Assembly: GCA_000309945.1 (NCBI GenBank)
Contig: CM001633.1
Coordinates: forward strand, 1,386,723-1,450,722
Direction of reading: 5' to 3'
DNA from: Leptolyngbyaceae cyanobacterium JSC-12
GTDB taxonomy: Bacteria > Cyanobacteriota > Cyanobacteriia > Leptolyngbyales > Leptolyngbyaceae
DNA: 64,000 bases
A program made the position numbers and the translations under genes. Position 1 is the first letter of the stretch; each line of letters begins with the position of its first letter. Below are positions 38,373 to 45,165 of this stretch, piece by piece. The notes under the pieces are model-generated. The model had not been told where the DNA came from, made no database searches, and worked only from the letters and a program-made list of their open reading frames with translations.

Positions 38373-38985
38373 CTACTCCCATACTGAATTGCAAAATAGC
38401 CTTTTACCTTCTGGAATATTAGATTCAAACACAAATTTTCATCCATCAAATCGCTTACCAAGCACATCGTCCACAGTCCATCCAAAAATTCGCTCCGCCT
38501 CAGCAGACAACTGCGAAACACAAAACTTAGAATTCCATTCAATGATTCCTAACAGAGAGTTTTCGATATGAAATGCCAATCATCGTGGAGCATCTTCTAA
38601 AGCTTGTTCGGCTTGTTTGCGATGAGTTATATCAATAATGCTGACTAAGACACAACTAGATGATTTGGTGGGGGCTAGAAATGTGATTGTACACAGGGTA
38701 TTAATATGGGTTCTTTGAAGAGTTTGTAAAACGGTAATACTTTGCGACTTCAATCGATCAATCGCAACCTTGATAGATGAAAAGTCTTCTTCCCATAAAG
38801 AAATACCTACTGCTTCAAAAATGTAGCGATCATGCTTTTCCTATCGCCTGAAATGTTGCCTGAGAGCAGTTTCTACTGCAGTACTATACCGGCTAACTTG
38901 CTTACATTCTCCGTTCCACATGACAAATGTGCCGTTTGTGATCCTTTCTCAGGCAAATAGTACACCTCCGAGTAAATCCATAACC
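38373..38985 (-). pseudogene. Decayed PAS-domain sensor (histidine kinase type) fragment
   Basis: Read in one minus-strand frame, the DNA encodes sensor fragments broken by several stops. In order they are: TFVMWNGECKQVSRYSTAVE; then stop; RYIFEAVGISLWEEDFSSIK; SITVLQTLQRTHINTLCTIT; VLVSIIDITHRKQAEQALED; then stop; and LAFHIENSLLGIIEWNSKF with EAERIFGWTVDDVLGKRF, then stop and KFVFESNIPEGKRL. These match the PAS repeats typical of large cyanobacterial sensor kinases. Compared with intact relatives, the stretch between IDRLKSQ and SITVLQTL also lacks most of one PAS domain (an internal deletion, from memory of the family). At least four in-frame stops make it non-functional. Confidence 0.8.
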
Positions 38986-39013: not shown

Positions 39014-39056
39014 GTAACGCCTGATACTATTTGGCTATGGGTTAGCCTGTTATTCA
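39014..39056 (+). promoter_or_regulatory. Candidate NtcA-activated promoter of the guanidine operon
   Basis: GTA-ACGCCTGA-TAC (39014-39027) fits the NtcA box GTAN8TAC exactly. It is followed after 23 bases by TATTCA (39051-39056), the spacing known for NtcA-activated promoters (22-24 bases to the -10 box). Transcription would start near 39063, just before the riboswitch. A six-base match alone occurs by chance, so the position is the main argument. Confidence 0.45.
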
Positions 39057-39082
39057 TTTACACATTGAACTGAATTACATTA

Positions 39083-39200
39083 AGCTTCTAGGGTTCCGGC
39101 AGACCATCGTTTGTGTCTGGTCCAAGAGAGGCTGGCTGTCAGAAGATTTTACTGCTGCAGTTACACGGCGGGAAAAAAGCCCGGGAGAGCTAAGAAAGCT
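39083..39200 (+). promoter_or_regulatory. Guanidine-I (ykkC) riboswitch
   Basis: All the conserved elements of the ykkC/guanidine-I aptamer are present in order: CTAGGGTTCCG (39088-39098), CTGGTCCAAGAGA (39117-39129), and ACACGGCGGG followed by AAAAAAGCCCGGGAGA (39163-39188). An AAGCTTCT / AGAAAGCTT pair at the ends can close the outer stem. Guanidine-I aptamers bind guanidinium and turn on the genes downstream. It lies 71 bp upstream of the guanidine hydrolase gene. This is a direct motif match. Confidence 0.95.
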
Positions 39201-39232
39201 TTGGAAGATTGCTTTCTTTACTTCCGGGCTTT
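39176..39232 (+). terminator. Expression-platform hairpin of the riboswitch
   Basis: AAAGCCCGG(GAG) at 39176-39187 can pair with (CTT)CCGGGCTTT at 39221-39232, and AAGAAAGC (39192-39199) with GCTTTCTT (39211-39218). This long hairpin uses the conserved 3' segment of the aptamer, so the two folds exclude each other, as expected of a switch. The stem is followed only by CGCATATC after three T, so it is a weak intrinsic terminator at best. On the opposite strand the same hairpin is followed by six T. Confidence 0.6.
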
Positions 39233-39270
39233 CGCATATCAGGAAATAGATTGTCTAGTAACTAAGCATC

Positions 39271-40458
39271 ATGACCGATAATCCCCTGTTTCAAAACCTG
39301 GCAAGTTCCTCTTCATCGGAAGCGAATCGTGCGTTGGAAAAAGAGACTCAGCTTCCCCTGACTGGATGGCAACAGGAAGTCAGTAAAGGGTTGGAGTATG
39401 GATTGGAAGCAGCCGCCAGTATCCGCGATCGCTCTATTCCTACCTTTTCTCGCGGTGAACTGCCCCATTATGCTGGTATCAACACCTTCCTGAAAGCACC
39501 CTACCTGGAAGATGTGCGTAAAGTGGGCGAATACGATGTGGCGATCGTCGGCATTCCCCACGACTCCGGCACTACCTACCGTCCCGGTACCCGCTTTGGA
39601 CCTCAAGGAATTCGCCGGATTTCTGCCCTCTACACACCTTACAACTTTGAACTAGGGGTAGATCTACGCGAGCAAATCACGCTATGTGATATAGGCGATG
39701 TCTTCACAATCCCTGGCAACAACGAAAAATCCTTCGATCAGATCTCCAAAGGCGTTGCCCATGTGTTTGAGTCAGGTGCATTTCCGATTCTACTGGGTGG
39801 TGATCATTCCATTGGCTTTCCTACTGTGCGCGGCGTGTGTCGGCATTTAGGCGATAAGAAAGTGGGGATTATTCACTTCGATCGCCACGTTGATACTCAG
39901 GAAACCGACCTGGATGAACGGATGCACACCTGCCCCTGGTTTCACGCTACCAATATGGCAAACGCCCCCGCCAAAAACCTTGTGCAACTGGGCATTGGCG
40001 GTTGGCAGGTACCCCGTCAGGGCGTAAAAGTATGCCGGGAGCGAGCTACCAACATTCTCACCGTCACCGACATTGTGGAACGGGGAATCGATGCCGCGGC
40101 TGACTTTGCCCTGGAACGCGCCCTTGATGGCACTGACTGCGTCTGGATCAGTTTTGATATTGATTGCATTGATGCAGGTTTTGTTCCTGGCACTGGCTGG
40201 CCCGAACCTGGCGGATTGTTACCTCGCGAAGCCCTTGCCCTGCTCGGCAAAATTATTCAACGGGCACCAGTGTGCGGCTTAGAAGTGGTAGAAGTTTCCC
40301 CACCTTATGATGTCAGCGATATGACTGCCCTCATGGCAACTCGTGTTATCTGCGACTCAATGGCGCATCTCGTGGTGTCGGGACAACTTCCCCGCCAACA
40401 AAAACCCGCTTATATCCATGCGGAAGCCAATATGCAAGTTGACCAAGCATGGACGTAA
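39271..40458 (+). CDS. gdmH: Nickel-dependent guanidine hydrolase GdmH (annotated often as agmatinase)
   Basis: A 395-residue ureohydrolase-fold enzyme. The dinuclear metal ligands are His179 in GGDHS, Asp204/His206/Asp208 in FDRHVD, and Asp296/Asp298 in SFDIDCIDAGFVPG. Two features differ from agmatinase or arginase: DRHVD in place of DAHxD, and GTGWPEPGG (Trp310) in place of GTGTPEPGG. It also has an N-terminal extension of about 85 residues. These fit the GdmH group (Sll1077 of Synechocystis), which hydrolyses guanidine to urea and ammonia with nickel. Context is decisive: a guanidine riboswitch upstream and HypA/HypB-like nickel chaperones downstream. The ATG lacks a strong ribosome-binding site. 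Confidence 0.92.
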   Translation: MTDNPLFQNLASSSSSEANRALEKETQLPLTGWQQEVSKGLEYGLEAAASIRDRSIPTFSRGELPHYAGINTFLKAPYLEDVRKVGEYDVAIVGIPHDSGTTYRPGTRFGPQGIRRISALYTPYNFELGVDLREQITLCDIGDVFTIPGNNEKSFDQISKGVAHVFESGAFPILLGGDHSIGFPTVRGVCRHLGDKKVGIIHFDRHVDTQETDLDERMHTCPWFHATNMANAPAKNLVQLGIGGWQVPRQGVKVCRERATNILTVTDIVERGIDAAADFALERALDGTDCVWISFDIDCIDAGFVPGTGWPEPGGLLPREALALLGKIIQRAPVCGLEVVEVSPPYDVSDMTALMATRVICDSMAHLVVSGQLPRQQKPAYIHAEANMQVDQAWT

Positions 40459-40461
40459 CCT

Positions 40462-40842
40462 ATGCATGAAACCGACATGACAAAGGCATTAATTCTCACC
40501 ATTCATGATTGGTGGGAGTCGCAGCCAGAAAGAATCCGGATTTCTAAAGTGCATTTGATTGTGGGTGAATTTACCTGTGTAGAACCTGTTAGTTTGCAAT
40601 TTGCTTTTGATGTGCAAACCCGCGGCACATTTCTAGAGGGAGCCACCCTAGAAATTCAGGAAACACCGCTGATTGCCTTCTGCCATCAATGCCAGCAGGA
40701 GTATTGCCCGGAAGTGGGAATTCACTACGCCTGCCCCACGTGCCGATCGCCCATGGATGATATTCGCTCTGGACGGGAACTGAAAATTGATCGCCTGGAA
40801 TTTGCTAGTCCCAAAACTGAGGAACCCAAACTATGCATATGA
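40462..40842 (+). CDS. ghaA: HypA-like nickel chaperone (GhaA)
   Basis: A 126-residue HypA/HybF-family protein. The N-terminal MHE carries the nickel-binding His2. The zinc domain has CHQC and CPTC pairs, plus one more Cys in EYCPEVG. It starts 3 bp after the gdmH stop and overlaps the HypB-like gene by 10 bp, so the three are translationally linked. No hydrogenase genes are in the window, which fits a role in loading nickel into GdmH, as shown for the Synechocystis GhaA/GhaB pair. Confidence 0.9.
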
Positions 40843-41540
40843 CTCACGATGCCGCCCTAGGCATTAACCTGCTACATGCCAATCAAGCAGGAGCTGACTA
40901 CAACCGTGCCCATTTTGATCAGTGGGGGGTCACCTGCTTCAACCTAATGAGCAGCCCCGGAGCCGGAAAAACCGCGTTATTGGAAAAAACCCTGGTAGCT
41001 TTGAGCACCGATCTCAAAATTGCCGTGATTGAAGGTGACATGACCACTGAACTGGATGCTGCTCGTCTGCGTCAGTATGGTGTTCCCGTGATTGCTATTA
41101 ACACTGGGCGATCGTGCCATCTGGACTCGCGCATGGTAGCTGGGGGAATTCACCGTTTGCAGCACGACTATGACCCCCACCAGTTCGACCTTGTTCTGGT
41201 GGAAAATGTCGGCAATCTGGTATGTCCGGCAGAGTTTGAGGTGGGCGAACATGCGAAAGTCGCCCTGCTGAGCATCACCGAAGGGGAAGATAAGCCGCTC
41301 AAGTATCCGGTAATGTTCCGTGAAGCCGATTGTTTGCTGATCACTAAAACTGATCTGGCTCCTTACTTGGATGTTAACCTCAGCCGGATTGAGGCAAACG
41401 TTCGCCAAATTAATCCTTACGTCACCATTATTCCCGTCTCTGCCAAAACTGGCGATGGATTAGCTGACTGGTTTACCTGGGTACGATCAACAATTCAGAA
41501 TCATCAACCCTTTCCCAGAGAGCGAAGTCAACAGGAGTGA
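40833..41540 (+). CDS. ghaB: HypB-like nickel-delivery GTPase (GhaB)
   Basis: A 235-residue SIMIBI-class GTPase. The P loop [15 protein letters not shown] is followed by [34 protein letters not shown] (metal-site Cys-His), [20 protein letters not shown] and the guanine-specificity motif [11 protein letters not shown]. There is no His-rich N-terminal nickel-storage stretch. With GhaA it should insert nickel into GdmH at the cost of GTP. It overlaps ghaA by 10 bp. Confidence 0.92.
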
Positions 41541-41791
41541 CTGCCACCTCTTAACTTTTCGTTTTTACTAAAGAATCTGTGTAGCAGGCGTTACAGATTA
41601 GCCAGCAAGCTATACGGTAAACCCGTTACACGGATGAGAAAAAGTTCAGCAGTGCGCGAACATAGCCTGGCAATACGAACATAACAACGTTAGCAATTCT
41701 ATCCCCACAGATACAGTAGACCGATTGGATACCCTTCCGCAGATAAGGTGCGATCGCCCTTAATTTTGCTCTTTTTTCACTCTAAGCCGTC

Positions 41792-42850
41792 ATGAAACTT
41801 CGCTTACCCCTGGCATCTCTATTCCTGTTTCTCATTACCTTGTCCCTGACGACGAGCTGTGTCAATCCAGCGGTTTATATCAAAACTACGACTGAAACTG
41901 AAGCCGCTGAAGCTGCCTCTGTTGGGATGGAAGTGGTTGACCTTGGATTTAGTGCATGGCCAGGTTGGTTTCCCTGGCAGGTTGCAAAAGAGCAAGGGAT
42001 TTTTCAAAAAACGAATGCACCCGTTGAACTGAAGTGGTTTGACGGATATCTGGAATCCATCAGTACGCTGACTGCTGGGCAAATTGATGCGAATAGTCAA
42101 ACATTGGGAGATACAGTTAGCTCTGTTGCTGGTGGTGCCGATCAGGTGGTGGTACTGGTGAACGATAATTCCACTGGCAACGACAAAATTATTGTGCGCG
42201 AAGGTATCAAAACTGTCGTGGATTTGAAGGGCAAAAAAGTAGCGGCAGAAGAAGGGACAGTCGATCACTTTCTGTTACTTCTAGGGCTGAAAAAAGCAGG
42301 TTTGAAGCCGGAAGATATTCAATTTGTGCCGCTAGAAACTGGAAAAGCTGCCTCTGCATTCGCAGCCGGGCAAGTAGATGCCTGTGCAGTGTTTGCACCT
42401 TTTACTACGCAAGCTTTGAAGCGATCGGGCAGTAGAGAACTCTTCAGTTCCAAAGACTTTCCGGGTGCCATTTCAGATCATCTAGTTGTGACACGCGATT
42501 TTGTTTATAAGCATCCCGAACAGGTGCAGGCACTTGTGGATGCCTGGTTTGCCACGCTGGAGTATTTGAAGCGGAACCAGGCCAGCGCTTACGAGATTAT
42601 GGCGAAGCGGGCAGGTGTCTCCGTAGCAGAGTACAAAGAATATGCCGACGGCACTCGGCTTTTTACCCTGGAAGAGAATTTAAAAGCCTTCCAACCTGGC
42701 AATGATATGACCTCGTTACTTTACGCCGCAGATGAGATGAGCAAGTTCCTGATGGATGTGGGGCTAGCAAAAACAAAACCCAACACCACTCTTCTATTTG
42801 ACGATCGCTTCGTCAAAGCCTACGCCCAAAAGCAAGCCAAACTTAGCTAA
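41792..42850 (+). CDS. ABC transporter lipoprotein, nitrate/taurine/guanidine type
   Basis: A 352-residue solute-binding lipoprotein. The signal peptide (ASLFLFLITLSLTTSC) ends in a lipobox with Cys23. The mature domain is of the NMT1/SsuA type: VDLGFSAWPGWFPWQVAKEQ, LKGKKVAAEEGTVDHFLL, and AAGQVDACAVFAPFTTQAL. It heads the transporter half of the guanidine locus, 251 bp after ghaB, and corresponds to the sll1080 position in Synechocystis. The likely substrate is guanidine or a related guanidinium compound, inferred from context. Confidence 0.88.
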   Translation: MKLRLPLASLFLFLITLSLTTSCVNPAVYIKTTTETEAAEAASVGMEVVDLGFSAWPGWFPWQVAKEQGIFQKTNAPVELKWFDGYLESISTLTAGQIDANSQTLGDTVSSVAGGADQVVVLVNDNSTGNDKIIVREGIKTVVDLKGKKVAAEEGTVDHFLLLLGLKKAGLKPEDIQFVPLETGKAASAFAAGQVDACAVFAPFTTQALKRSGSRELFSSKDFPGAISDHLVVTRDFVYKHPEQVQALVDAWFATLEYLKRNQASAYEIMAKRAGVSVAEYKEYADGTRLFTLEENLKAFQPGNDMTSLLYAADEMSKFLMDVGLAKTKPNTTLLFDDRFVKAYAQKQAKLS

Positions 42851-42905
42851 CTCTACATCCTCAGTCCTCTCCGTTCACCCGTCCACTTTTCATCTCTGCA
42901 ATTCT

Positions 42906-43757
42906 ATGAGCGACAGCACAGCACCCCGATCCATTCAGCTTTACATGAAGCCAAAGCAAATGCACCCTACTGTATTTTGGCGGTTGGCTGAAGATATTCC
43001 CAAACCCCTTTATACGGCTCTAACAATCACCTCAATTGCTTTGCCATTAGTGGTTTGGTGGGCAGTCACTGCCTTCGGCAATATCGACCCCAAATTCCTG
43101 CCGTCTCCTGGCGATGTGATTGCCGCATTTGGGCGGCTGTGGAGTACTCGAGAACTGTTGAAAGACACAGTTGCAAGTTTATGGCGGGTTGGTGTTGGTT
43201 TTTTGCTGGCTGCCGCATTTTCCATTCCCATTGGGATTCTAATGGGCAGTTTTCCCAGTATCCGCGCCTTACTGGAACCGCTGTTTGGTTTGATGCGGTA
43301 TATGCCTGCTCCAGCATTCATCCCGCTGTTAATTCTCTACCTGGGGATTGGGGAAGCACCCAAAATCATGTTGATTTTCATTGGAGTGTTCTTTTTCAAC
43401 TCGTTGATGGTAATGGATACGGTGAAATTTGTACCGAAGGATTTGATTGAAGCTACATACATCTTGGGAGGTAACCGGGTCGCTGTCCTGACACAAGTGA
43501 TTATGCCGCACGTTTTACCAGGAATTCTTGACTCCTGCCGAATCAACCTCGCTGCTGCCTGGCAGTTGGTCATTGTCTCGGAACTGATTGCTGCTACCGA
43601 AGGCTTGGGGCGTCGCATCAGCGTTGCCGGACGCTTCTTGAAAACTGATGAGATTTTCGTAGGGCTGATTGTAATTGGTGTGATTGGACTATGCTTTGAC
43701 CTGTTGTTCCAGTATCTGCTGCAAGTTACTTGCAAGTGGGCAAGTCAGAAACGATAG
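42906..43757 (+). CDS. ABC transporter permease, nitrate/taurine/guanidine type
   Basis: A 283-residue permease of the SsuC/TauC type with about six membrane helices. The start at 42906 (MSDSTAPRSIQLYMK) is preferred over an upstream codon that would overlap the binding-protein gene. The EAA-type loop EATYILGGNRVAVLTQVIMP meets the ATPase. Other conserved parts are LWRVGVGFLLAAAFSIPIGI and LIAATEGLGRRISVAGRF. It forms the channel of the transporter in the guanidine locus. Confidence 0.9.
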   Translation: MSDSTAPRSIQLYMKPKQMHPTVFWRLAEDIPKPLYTALTITSIALPLVVWWAVTAFGNIDPKFLPSPGDVIAAFGRLWSTRELLKDTVASLWRVGVGFLLAAAFSIPIGILMGSFPSIRALLEPLFGLMRYMPAPAFIPLLILYLGIGEAPKIMLIFIGVFFFNSLMVMDTVKFVPKDLIEATYILGGNRVAVLTQVIMPHVLPGILDSCRINLAAAWQLVIVSELIAATEGLGRRISVAGRFLKTDEIFVGLIVIGVIGLCFDLLFQYLLQVTCKWASQKR

Positions 43758-43895
43758 AGAGGTGAACTTTGAAGAAGCCAGAAGGCTGGAACATTGATTT
43801 CCAGCGCTTTCCTATCCCAGAACTTCCATCCTCAATTCCCTATTCCCCATTCCCCTCTTTCCTGTCCCACCTTCCCCATTACTAAAGGGCATCTT

Positions 43896-44675
43896 ATGTA
43901 TTTACAGATCAATAATCTAAACAAAAACTTTGAAACGAAGAACGGGACGCTGGTGGTGTTAAAGGACATCAATATGGCGATCGCGGAGGGTGAGTTTATC
44001 TGTGCGGTCGGGGCATCGGGTTCGGGTAAATCAACGCTGCTACGACAAATTGCGGGGTTAGATTCACCGTCTTCAGGAGAAGTGCTGATTGACGGCAAGC
44101 GAGTAACCGGACCTGGACCGGATCGTGGCATGGTGTTTCAGCACTACACGCTGTATCCCTGGATGACAGTGCAGGATAACACCGAATTTGGGCTGAAATT
44201 GCAGGGGGTACCCAAAAAAGAACGGCGAGAACAGGCAAGTTACTACCTCAGCGTGGTGGGATTGTCTAAGTTTGCTAAGTCTTTGCCAAAGGAATTATCG
44301 GGTGGGATGAAGCAGCGGGTGGCGATCGCTCGTGCACTGGCATCTGAACCGAAAGTGCTGCTGATGGATGAACCCTTTGGTGCGTTGGATATTCACACCA
44401 AAGAATCGATGCATGAATTCATGTTGGATTTATGGCAGCGTACCAACATCACTGTGTTTATGATTACCCACGATGTGGAGGAAGCGGTGTTCTTATCTAA
44501 CCGGATTTATGCCCTGGGTGCTCGTCCTGGAACTGTTCGGAAAGAAATGGTGATTAAACTCCCCGAACGCACGCACCACGTTAAGCGCCATTCTGTTTTC
44601 CACGATTATCGCGATGAATTGATGGATCTGTTACGGCGACATGGGCAGGAAGCCGTCATGGCAACAGCCGCATAG
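43896..44675 (+). CDS. ABC transporter ATP-binding protein, nitrate/taurine/guanidine type
   Basis: A 259-residue ATPase. Walker A is GASGSGKSTLLRQIAGL, the signature LSGGMKQRVAIARALA and Walker B VLLMDEPFGALD, followed by the switch His in MITHDVEEAV. The start ATG at 43896 is preceded by AAAGGGC; the longer frame to 43794 reads through an STRR-like C/T-rich tract. It powers the transporter formed with the preceding two genes and is followed by the Nudix gene after 7 bp. Confidence 0.92.
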   Translation: MYLQINNLNKNFETKNGTLVVLKDINMAIAEGEFICAVGASGSGKSTLLRQIAGLDSPSSGEVLIDGKRVTGPGPDRGMVFQHYTLYPWMTVQDNTEFGLKLQGVPKKERREQASYYLSVVGLSKFAKSLPKELSGGMKQRVAIARALASEPKVLLMDEPFGALDIHTKESMHEFMLDLWQRTNITVFMITHDVEEAVFLSNRIYALGARPGTVRKEMVIKLPERTHHVKRHSVFHDYRDELMDLLRRHGQEAVMATAA

Positions 44676-44682
44676 GTGATGT

Positions 44683-45165
44683 ATGAGTGTATCATGCAAG
44701 GATTCCTTTTCGGGATTGAGCATGATTGACTCAACGAATACGAAAGACGAAGCATTCGGGATTGTTCCCATTTGGCAGCACGATGGCACCTACGAGTTTT
44801 TGCTAATTCAGCATCATGCAGGGCACTGGGGGTTTCCCAAAGGACACGCTGACCCTGGCGAAGATGCGCTACAAACTGCCTGCCGTGAGTTTGTAGAAGA
44901 AACGGGCATTGCTGACTACGTAGTGCTAGACAATGTAGCGTTTTCTGAGCAGTATGTTTTTACCCGTGATGGGCAGCGGTTTGACAAAACCGTAGTCTAC
45001 TATCCAGCCTTGGTGAGATCATCAGTGGTTTCTTGCCAGGCAGATGAGATTCAAAACTATGCCTGGCTGGAGTTTGAAGCGGCGATCGCCCGCTTAACGT
45101 TTGAGGGAGCTAAACGAGTCTTGACCGAGGTGCATCAGTATTTGCTGGACTGTCAACCCAGTTGA
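44683..45165 (+). CDS. Nudix hydrolase (diadenosine-tetraphosphatase-like)
   Basis: A 160-residue Nudix protein. The Nudix box is intact: GHADPGEDALQTAC followed by REFVEETGI (GX5EX7REUXEEXGU). HWGFPKGH resembles the bis(5'-nucleosyl)-tetraphosphatase group. The start is either the ATG at 44683, 7 bp after the transporter ATPase, or MIDSTN at 44722. It is tightly linked to the guanidine transport genes, which suggests co-transcription. Whether it functions with guanidine use is unknown. Confidence 0.85.
   Translation: MSVSCKDSFSGLSMIDSTNTKDEAFGIVPIWQHDGTYEFLLIQHHAGHWGFPKGHADPGEDALQTACREFVEETGIADYVVLDNVAFSEQYVFTRDGQRFDKTVVYYPALVRSSVVSCQADEIQNYAWLEFEAAIARLTFEGAKRVLTEVHQYLLDCQPS

Follow-up and report, generated by a model that had tools for sequence, protein, structure and literature searches.

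Does an arginase-family gene that stands behind a guanidine-sensing RNA encode an agmatinase, or does it belong to a system for the use of guanidine? This question is raised by a stretch of 64,000 nucleotides (hereafter the window) from the genome of Leptolyngbyaceae cyanobacterium JSC-12 (contig CM001633.1), in which a reading made from the letters alone, without database searches (the sequence-only reading), had placed a complete locus for guanidine sensing, import, and hydrolysis. Our study confirms that observation and supports its interpretation as largely correct. The locus is a new example of an already known guanidine-use system, in which guanidine is sensed, imported, and broken down as a nitrogen source. 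The best explanation of the whole, to which we assign a probability of about 0.92, is an operon for the assimilation of guanidine, like sll1077-sll1082 of Synechocystis, in a Leptolyngbyaceae-like cyanobacterium, with control by NtcA and by a riboswitch included. Sensing, nickel-dependent hydrolysis, and chaperone activation are known for the families concerned and would carry over to this locus by analogy; we infer that this organism imports guanidine and uses it as a nitrogen source.

Our analyses draw on the organism's own genome (5.53 Mb, a single contig), on a scan for the hydrolase gene gdmH over 386 genomes of the window's phylum, and on a further 80 named loci, which are the best 80 of 574 relatives. 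The total of 139 loci yields 129 distinct gdmH genes. It is important to note that these loci share kinship, so the counts given below are not independent. Papers are cited here from excerpts.

The arginase-family enzyme

39271..40458, + strand: gdmH, a probable nickel-dependent guanidine hydrolase of the arginase family (PF00491; identity to 7esr_A)

The product of this gene shares 334 of 380 residues (88%) with 7esr_A. The sequence of 7esr_A is also that of 7oi1, and 7OI1 is named as the Synechocystis GdmH (PMC11410670). The second-best match among solved structures is 9fek, the guanidinase of Nitrospira inopinata (PMC11410670). The arginase-family gene with DRHVD and GTGWPEPGG described in the sequence-only reading was found exactly where it had been placed, its product carrying the motifs HFDRHVD and VPGTGWPEPGG. 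Among 128 homologues, GGDHS, HFDRHVD (with the exception of V207), FDIDCID, and GTGWPEPGG are at least 97% conserved, and the tryptophan of the last motif appears to correspond to the Trp305 described in PMC11410670. In the work of Wang 2021 (PMC8390497), guanidine was degraded by cell extract that contained the Synechocystis enzyme, and agmatine was not. On the basis of sequence, the product of 39271-40458 probably acts as a nickel guanidine hydrolase that releases urea and ammonia. By its enzyme, the closest named relative among the best 80 of 574 is Leptolyngbyaceae cyanobacterium C42_A2020_001, at 97% identity.

An automatic pipeline could nevertheless call the gene an agmatinase, which would assign it to polyamine synthesis, because its product scores 0.2 bits over the cut-off of the agmatinase equivalog model TIGR01230 (174.5 against 174.3 bits). 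This narrow pass is outweighed by the 88% identity to GdmH, and the guanidine aptamer that stands 5' of the gene speaks against the label as well. In addition, the genome holds one other arginase-family gene (C1:5469414), whose shorter product is 28% identical to the gdmH product over 275 aligned positions and has the loop GVGTPEPGG. We take the GxGTPEPGG loop to be a mark of agmatinases; the window enzyme is without it and has GTGWPEPGG, so that, judged by sequence, the paralogue would be the better agmatinase candidate of the genome's two. The identity to GdmH and the separate agmatinase-like paralogue together led us to rule out the agmatinase reading of 39271-40458 as extremely improbable, and the earlier warning that such a label would be wrong was justified. 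A gene for the urease alpha subunit is present in this genome, as it is in all 59 genomes with gdmH (this one included), and the urea produced could thus be degraded further.

The guanidine-I riboswitch and its competing hairpin

39077..39189, + strand: guanidine-I riboswitch aptamer (RF00442, 83.1 bits; gathering score 63)
39177..39231, + strand: competing hairpin, a probable transcription attenuator (fold -32.4 kcal/mol, z -4.09)

The guanidine-I aptamer that had been recognized by its motifs was recovered with cmscan as a full-length match to RF00442 (model 1-107, E-value 2.5e-13), well over the gathering score. It is the sole Rfam match at gathering level within the window and the sole RF00442 match in the genome. 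Rfam was given 56 of the 58 relatives' loci (L093 and L094 were left out), in three batches in which the riboswitch was over the cut-off in 16 of 20, 19 of 19, and 14 of 17 loci, and it was also found in seven of seven close named loci.

A strand of the last aptamer helix, GCCCGGGAG, is in the folding prediction common to that helix and to the competing hairpin at 39177-39231, in which its predicted downstream partner is CTTCCGGGC. The expression platform is therefore modeled as a probable competition between the last aptamer helix and a terminator-like hairpin. For comparisons of this region, we used the 116 loci (window included) that have a recognizable aptamer core with 120 bases or more 5' of it; the other 13 of the 129 have no pattern-matched core or too little 5' sequence. 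In 98 of the 116, the last helix of the aptamer is predicted to have a 3' strand that can re-pair into a downstream hairpin; the figure is approximate, as a simple rule locates the aptamer strand. In 74 of these 98, the hairpin ends with a run of four or more T.

Three observations are less favorable to control by a riboswitch throughout: no riboswitch is over the cut-off in seven of the 56 relatives' loci, none is over it in five of six loci chosen as odd (rearranged-looking or core-less) while the sixth has one, and the attenuator hairpin of the window itself is trailed by three U only. Consensus scans gave seven sigma-70 promoters against a shuffle mean of 7.7 and ten terminators against 6.8 (standard deviation 2.7); neither is clearly above shuffles, and they were not used.

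The HypA/HypB-type chaperones

40462..40842, + strand: ghaA, a HypA-type nickel chaperone (PF01155; TIGR00100, 119.9 bits)
40833..41540, + strand: ghaB, a HypB-type GTPase (TIGR00073, 302.4 bits)

The two genes overlap by 10 bases, in agreement with the overlap claimed earlier. In the 115 HypB proteins from gdmH loci, the P-loop, C95-H96, and C131 are at least 97% conserved; C95-H96 and C131 presumably have a role in nickel binding. The names of both TIGR00100 and TIGR00073 refer to hydrogenase maturation, HypA and HypB serve urease in some bacteria, and urease is also present in this genome, so the client of the pair might be a NiFe hydrogenase, or chiefly urease, with the position next to gdmH due to chance. 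Two results speak against this possibility. First, no match to a NiFe hydrogenase large subunit was found in the genome, in which ghaA is the sole HypA match; on this ground, we ruled out that the pair here serves to mature a hydrogenase. Second, across genomes of the phylum the number of HypA genes mostly follows hydrogenase plus gdmH.

To count them, we took 79 genomes, namely the 59 with gdmH and 20 of the 327 without it (as listed, not at random), and scored G177 and G332, whose hydrogenase matches are below the cut-off, as hydrogenase-less. All 34 genomes with both gdmH and a hydrogenase have two HypA, 23 of the 25 that have gdmH but lack a hydrogenase over the cut-off have one HypA over the cut-off, and 13 of the 14 with a hydrogenase and no gdmH have one. 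In the six genomes with neither, sorted without regard to urease, no HypA was over the cut-off. The HypA count thus equals the sum of hydrogenase and gdmH in 76 of the 79 genomes, which makes the label "hydrogenase" misleading here. The three exceptions count against the rule: G005 and G070, both gdmH genomes in which no hydrogenase is over the cut-off, have two HypA, and G080 has a NiFe hydrogenase match and zero HypA matches. The genus-mates of G080 with gdmH (G014, G076, and G093) have two HypA, and G080 may represent an assembly gap or a real loss.

Taken together, the sequence comparisons fit a dedicated pair, GhaA and GhaB, that would serve GdmH, with urease as a possible second client, and we consider the hydrogenase or urease explanation very unlikely. 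A dedicated chaperone pair GhaA/GhaB has been described in Synechocystis (PMC10094980).

Gene order and spread among relatives

Where the sequence extends 1.5 kb or more past gdmH (125 loci), the order gdmH-hypA-hypB is kept in 115; where it extends 6 kb or more (108 loci), the full set of six genes, from gdmH to the genes of the ATP-binding cassette (ABC) transporter, stands in order in 79. The correspondence to Synechocystis sll1077-sll1082 that had been proposed for the gene order is borne out by the published order (PMC10094980, PMC8400943). Two counts weigh against a uniform and widespread operon: 29 of the 108 loci are without the six-gene order, and gdmH is patchy in the phylum, with 59 carriers among the 386 genomes (this one included).

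The ABC importer

41792..42850, + strand: substrate-binding lipoprotein, probably for guanidinium (TIGR01728 SsuA_fam, PF13379)
42906..43757, + strand (open reading frame open from TTG 42798): ABC permease (PF00528; relatives in the matching position)
43896..44675, + strand (open reading frame open from TTG 43794): ABC ATPase (PF00005; relatives in the matching position)

Family matches bear out the set of binding protein, permease, and ATPase that had been read from the sequence. The listed TTG starts are probably too far upstream, and ATG 42906 for the permease and ATG 43896 for the ATPase are likelier; with queries that begin at these ATG codons, the matches in L057 are 810 and 774 bases long, while the window itself gives 849 and 777.

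The ligand of the set has to be approached indirectly. The AlphaFold2 model of the binding protein has a predicted local distance difference test score (pLDDT) of 89.4 and its nearest folds are TauA and SsuA, so that the fold search points to the general TauA/SsuA family and names no ligand. An alignment of 46 gdmH-linked binding proteins (that of the window and 45 of the 53 from named loci) has many invariant acidic and aromatic positions, most of which are at least 95% conserved when 90 proteins are compared; E182 is invariant in the 46 and under the 95% level in the 90. Out of 49 conserved aligned positions (48 invariant plus the near-invariant D107), 33 differ in E. coli SsuA, with changes from the binding protein to SsuA that include D84>P, D107>P, D125>P, E153>Q, and D229>F. 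The argument for a cation binder is tempered by SsuA having E at D131, keeping D175, and having E at N124. The conserved residues suit a cation over a sulfonate and do not amount to proof.

Two arrangements among the relatives support an import role for the ABC set. First, in L110 the set is separated from gdmH and is preceded by a guanidine-I aptamer of its own (82.1 bits), while a second guanidine-I aptamer, just below the cut-off at 62.5 bits, precedes gdmH. Second, a sodium/solute symporter gene is found at the cluster in eight of the 129 distinct loci (L037, L051, L064, L105, L117, L119, L168, and L169), six times behind hypB and twice divergent before gdmH, and none of these eight loci has a binding-protein or permease match. 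The family of the symporter was determined from L037 only, with TIGR00813 as the best model at 122.8 bits, below its cut-off of 184.

The set could instead carry another substrate, such as a sulfonate, nitrate, urea, or a substituted guanidine, and be a neighbor of the hydrolase instead of its partner. The nearest named families, which are sulfonate, taurine, and putative-urea binding proteins, are in favor of this, as are the 251-base gap between hypB and the binding-protein gene and the fact that the loci without the six-gene order are mostly those in which the ABC genes are missing. Against it stand the matching position of the set in those loci that keep the order, the divergence from SsuA at the conserved positions, the separate aptamer before the set in L110, and the symporter gene where the binding-protein gene is missing. 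We judge another substrate to be rather unlikely, and import of guanidine by the ABC set, indirectly supported, to be what these genomic arrangements suggest.

The NtcA-type box

39014..39027, + strand: NtcA-type box GTAACGCCTGATAC (GTA-N8-TAC pattern search)
41581..41594, + strand: second GTA-N8-TAC, possibly there by chance, before the ABC genes (pattern search)

The first of these boxes, which goes unmentioned in the sequence-only reading, ends 49 bases 5' of the aptamer and matches the canonical NtcA site, GTA-N8-TAC (PMC3898017). The whole window contains six such patterns against 5.0 expected, so a single box is uninformative and gains weight only in comparison with relatives. In the 116-locus set, the pattern occurs within 200 bases 5' of the aptamer core in 82 loci, compared with a mean of 3.4 (standard deviation 1.7, maximum 10) in 200 shuffle trials, and the signal is specific to the N8 spacing, as spacings of 4-7 and 9-12 gave only two to six loci. 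Furthermore, a TAN3T -10 element at 21-23 bases past the box is found on the gdmH strand in 33 of the 82 loci and on the other strand in one. The presence of the box in most loci and at the N8 spacing alone suggests that nitrogen shortage and guanidine probably act as an AND gate over the operon, with NtcA as the predicted agent of the first input. The functional unit then probably extends back to the NtcA-type box, beyond the limits of 39083-44675 given earlier. Repression of Synechocystis sll1077-1082 by excess ammonium (PMC10094980) agrees with nitrogen control.

Several points have to be set against this interpretation. The box is missing in all 13 loci of family f19 and, outside that family, in 21 of 103 loci (it is present in the other 82). 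Since the loci are related, the 82 boxes are not 82 independent events. The -10 element of the window is weak (TATTCA, 23 bases past the box and off the TAN3T consensus), so the claim of NtcA action for this locus rests on its relatives. In Synechocystis, the repression by ammonium required the protease Slr1821, and in the excerpts of that work NtcA is not named as its cause (PMC10094980). Among the literature matches listed, which do not cover Itzenhauser 2025 (PNAS), Funck 2022, and Giner-Lamia 2017, the excerpts state no link between NtcA and the guanidine operon.

With respect to the second box, five of 82 gaps between hypB and the binding-protein gene, that of the window among them, contain GTA-N8-TAC; shuffled sequences average 2.1 such gaps and reach 8 at most. 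The case for another NtcA promoter ahead of the ABC genes is thus weak, and the pattern may be there by chance.

Proposed mechanism

From these elements, the following course of events can be proposed. Under nitrogen shortage, NtcA would bind the box at 39014-39027 and transcription would start, and the nascent leader would fold into the guanidine-I aptamer. Once guanidine is bound, this aptamer would retain its last helix and the competing hairpin would be blocked, as is known for the riboswitch class, so that transcription would proceed; with no guanidine, GCCCGGGAG would pair with CTTCCGGGC downstream and transcription would presumably stop, at a hairpin with its short run of three U. The ABC set would bring guanidine into the cell, the HypA/HypB-type chaperones would load nickel into GdmH, GdmH would split guanidine into urea and ammonia, and the urease of the genome would degrade the urea.

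The locus might, on the other hand, mainly detoxify guanidine formed inside the cell instead of supplying nitrogen. Cyanobacteria are harmed by guanidine, and this toxicity is relieved when Sll1077 is expressed (PMC8390497). The importer genes, the urease found in every gdmH genome, and the nitrogen-type promoter box argue against detoxification as the main role, which we consider unlikely, although the two uses are compatible. Returning to nitrogen nutrition, we hold, with somewhat better than even confidence, a wider joint reading: the AND gate operates in most guanidine-using cyanobacteria, with the exception of one small-genome family; the HypA/HypB nickel module tracks its clients, its copy number following the number of client enzymes, so that the pair persists without a hydrogenase; the transporter is exchangeable; and glutamine synthetase has been recruited in particular lineages.

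Neighboring genes and variant loci

Eleven loci have a gene for a type III glutamine synthetase within the guanidine cluster or next to it: between hypA and hypB in L136, L052, L151, L148, and L112, between hypB and the binding-protein gene in L077, L078, L080, L081, and L082, and behind the cluster in L097. Its family, TIGR03105, was assigned from L136 only, and the other ten are 66-92% identical to that of L136. Such an enzyme could capture the released ammonia or act on a guanidino compound. Among the literature matches listed, the excerpts mention neither a symporter nor a glutamine synthetase at guanidine clusters.

In the window, a Nudix hydrolase gene (44683-45165, + strand) begins 7 bases past the stop of the ATPase gene and may be on the same transcript as the operon. 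L095 and L098 have a homologue of this gene after the cluster, and L120 has one between the permease and ATPase genes. On the other side, at 38439-38840 (- strand), there are two short open stretches, one ending ...SIIDITHRKQAEQALEDAPR, which we take to resemble pieces of a PAS sensor protein; they lie between pyrG and the guanidine operon and are probably a remnant.

Other loci are arranged differently. L118 (Picosynechococcus sp. PCC 7117) has hypA-hypB-ABC first and gdmH last, and no guanidine-I match over the cut-off was found in its 21 kb. L064, L168, and L172 have a putative methyltransferase-like gene, named from its sequence, between gdmH and hypA. L131, a contig filed under a metagenome-assembled genome of Candidatus Gracilibacteria, carries the six-gene cluster with a GdmH 87% identical; its presence there is probably a binning error.

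Comparison with known systems

The nearest counterpart is sll1077-sll1082 of Synechocystis sp. PCC 6803, which has the same kinds of genes in the same order (PMC10094980), a guanidine-I leader (PMC8390497, PMC12186494), and the GdmH noted above at 88% identity. Differences can be listed on this genome's side only: one HypA and no NiFe hydrogenase match, the second GTA-N8-TAC before the ABC genes, and the Nudix gene directly behind. The cassette 40486-40491 of Limnospira indica PCC 8005 likewise consists of six genes syntenic to sll1077-1082 behind a ykkC leader, but in the excerpts its first gene is termed an agmatinase and the role of the cassette is left open (PMC8400943). The marine picocyanobacterial cluster (Pro-eCAG_004, Syn-eCAG_001) shares the guanidinase, hypA, hypB, a TauABC-like transporter, and the ykkC leader; it differs in the Rieske protein gene that lies downstream in most Synechococcus/Cyanobium carriers (PMC10119275). 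No Rieske protein gene was found in the cluster of the window by its open reading frame list and family matches.

More distant systems share fewer parts. The Nitrospira inopinata guanidinase belongs to the same enzyme family and has a guanidine-I riboswitch, whereas an APC permease replaces the ABC importer and the nickel chaperone genes are not nearby, according to the excerpts (PMC11410670). Metformin hydrolase operons also place genes for arginase-family nickel enzymes next to hypA and hypB (PMC11399263), but these enzymes are heteromeric, act on another substrate, and are far less similar (E-values of about 1e-42 to 1e-41).

Significance

Our study adds to the known system the conserved NtcA-type box, the book-keeping of HypA, and the swap of transporters, any of which may have been published before. 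The locus also brings together three misleading family-model labels, namely agmatinase, hydrogenase maturation, and sulfonate transport. It is a clean member of the guanidinase systems in a genome without a detected NiFe hydrogenase, so that the role of HypA and HypB can be tested here without that competing client. Finally, the conserved NtcA-type box before the riboswitch offers a simple and testable logic for the use of guanidine by cyanobacteria.

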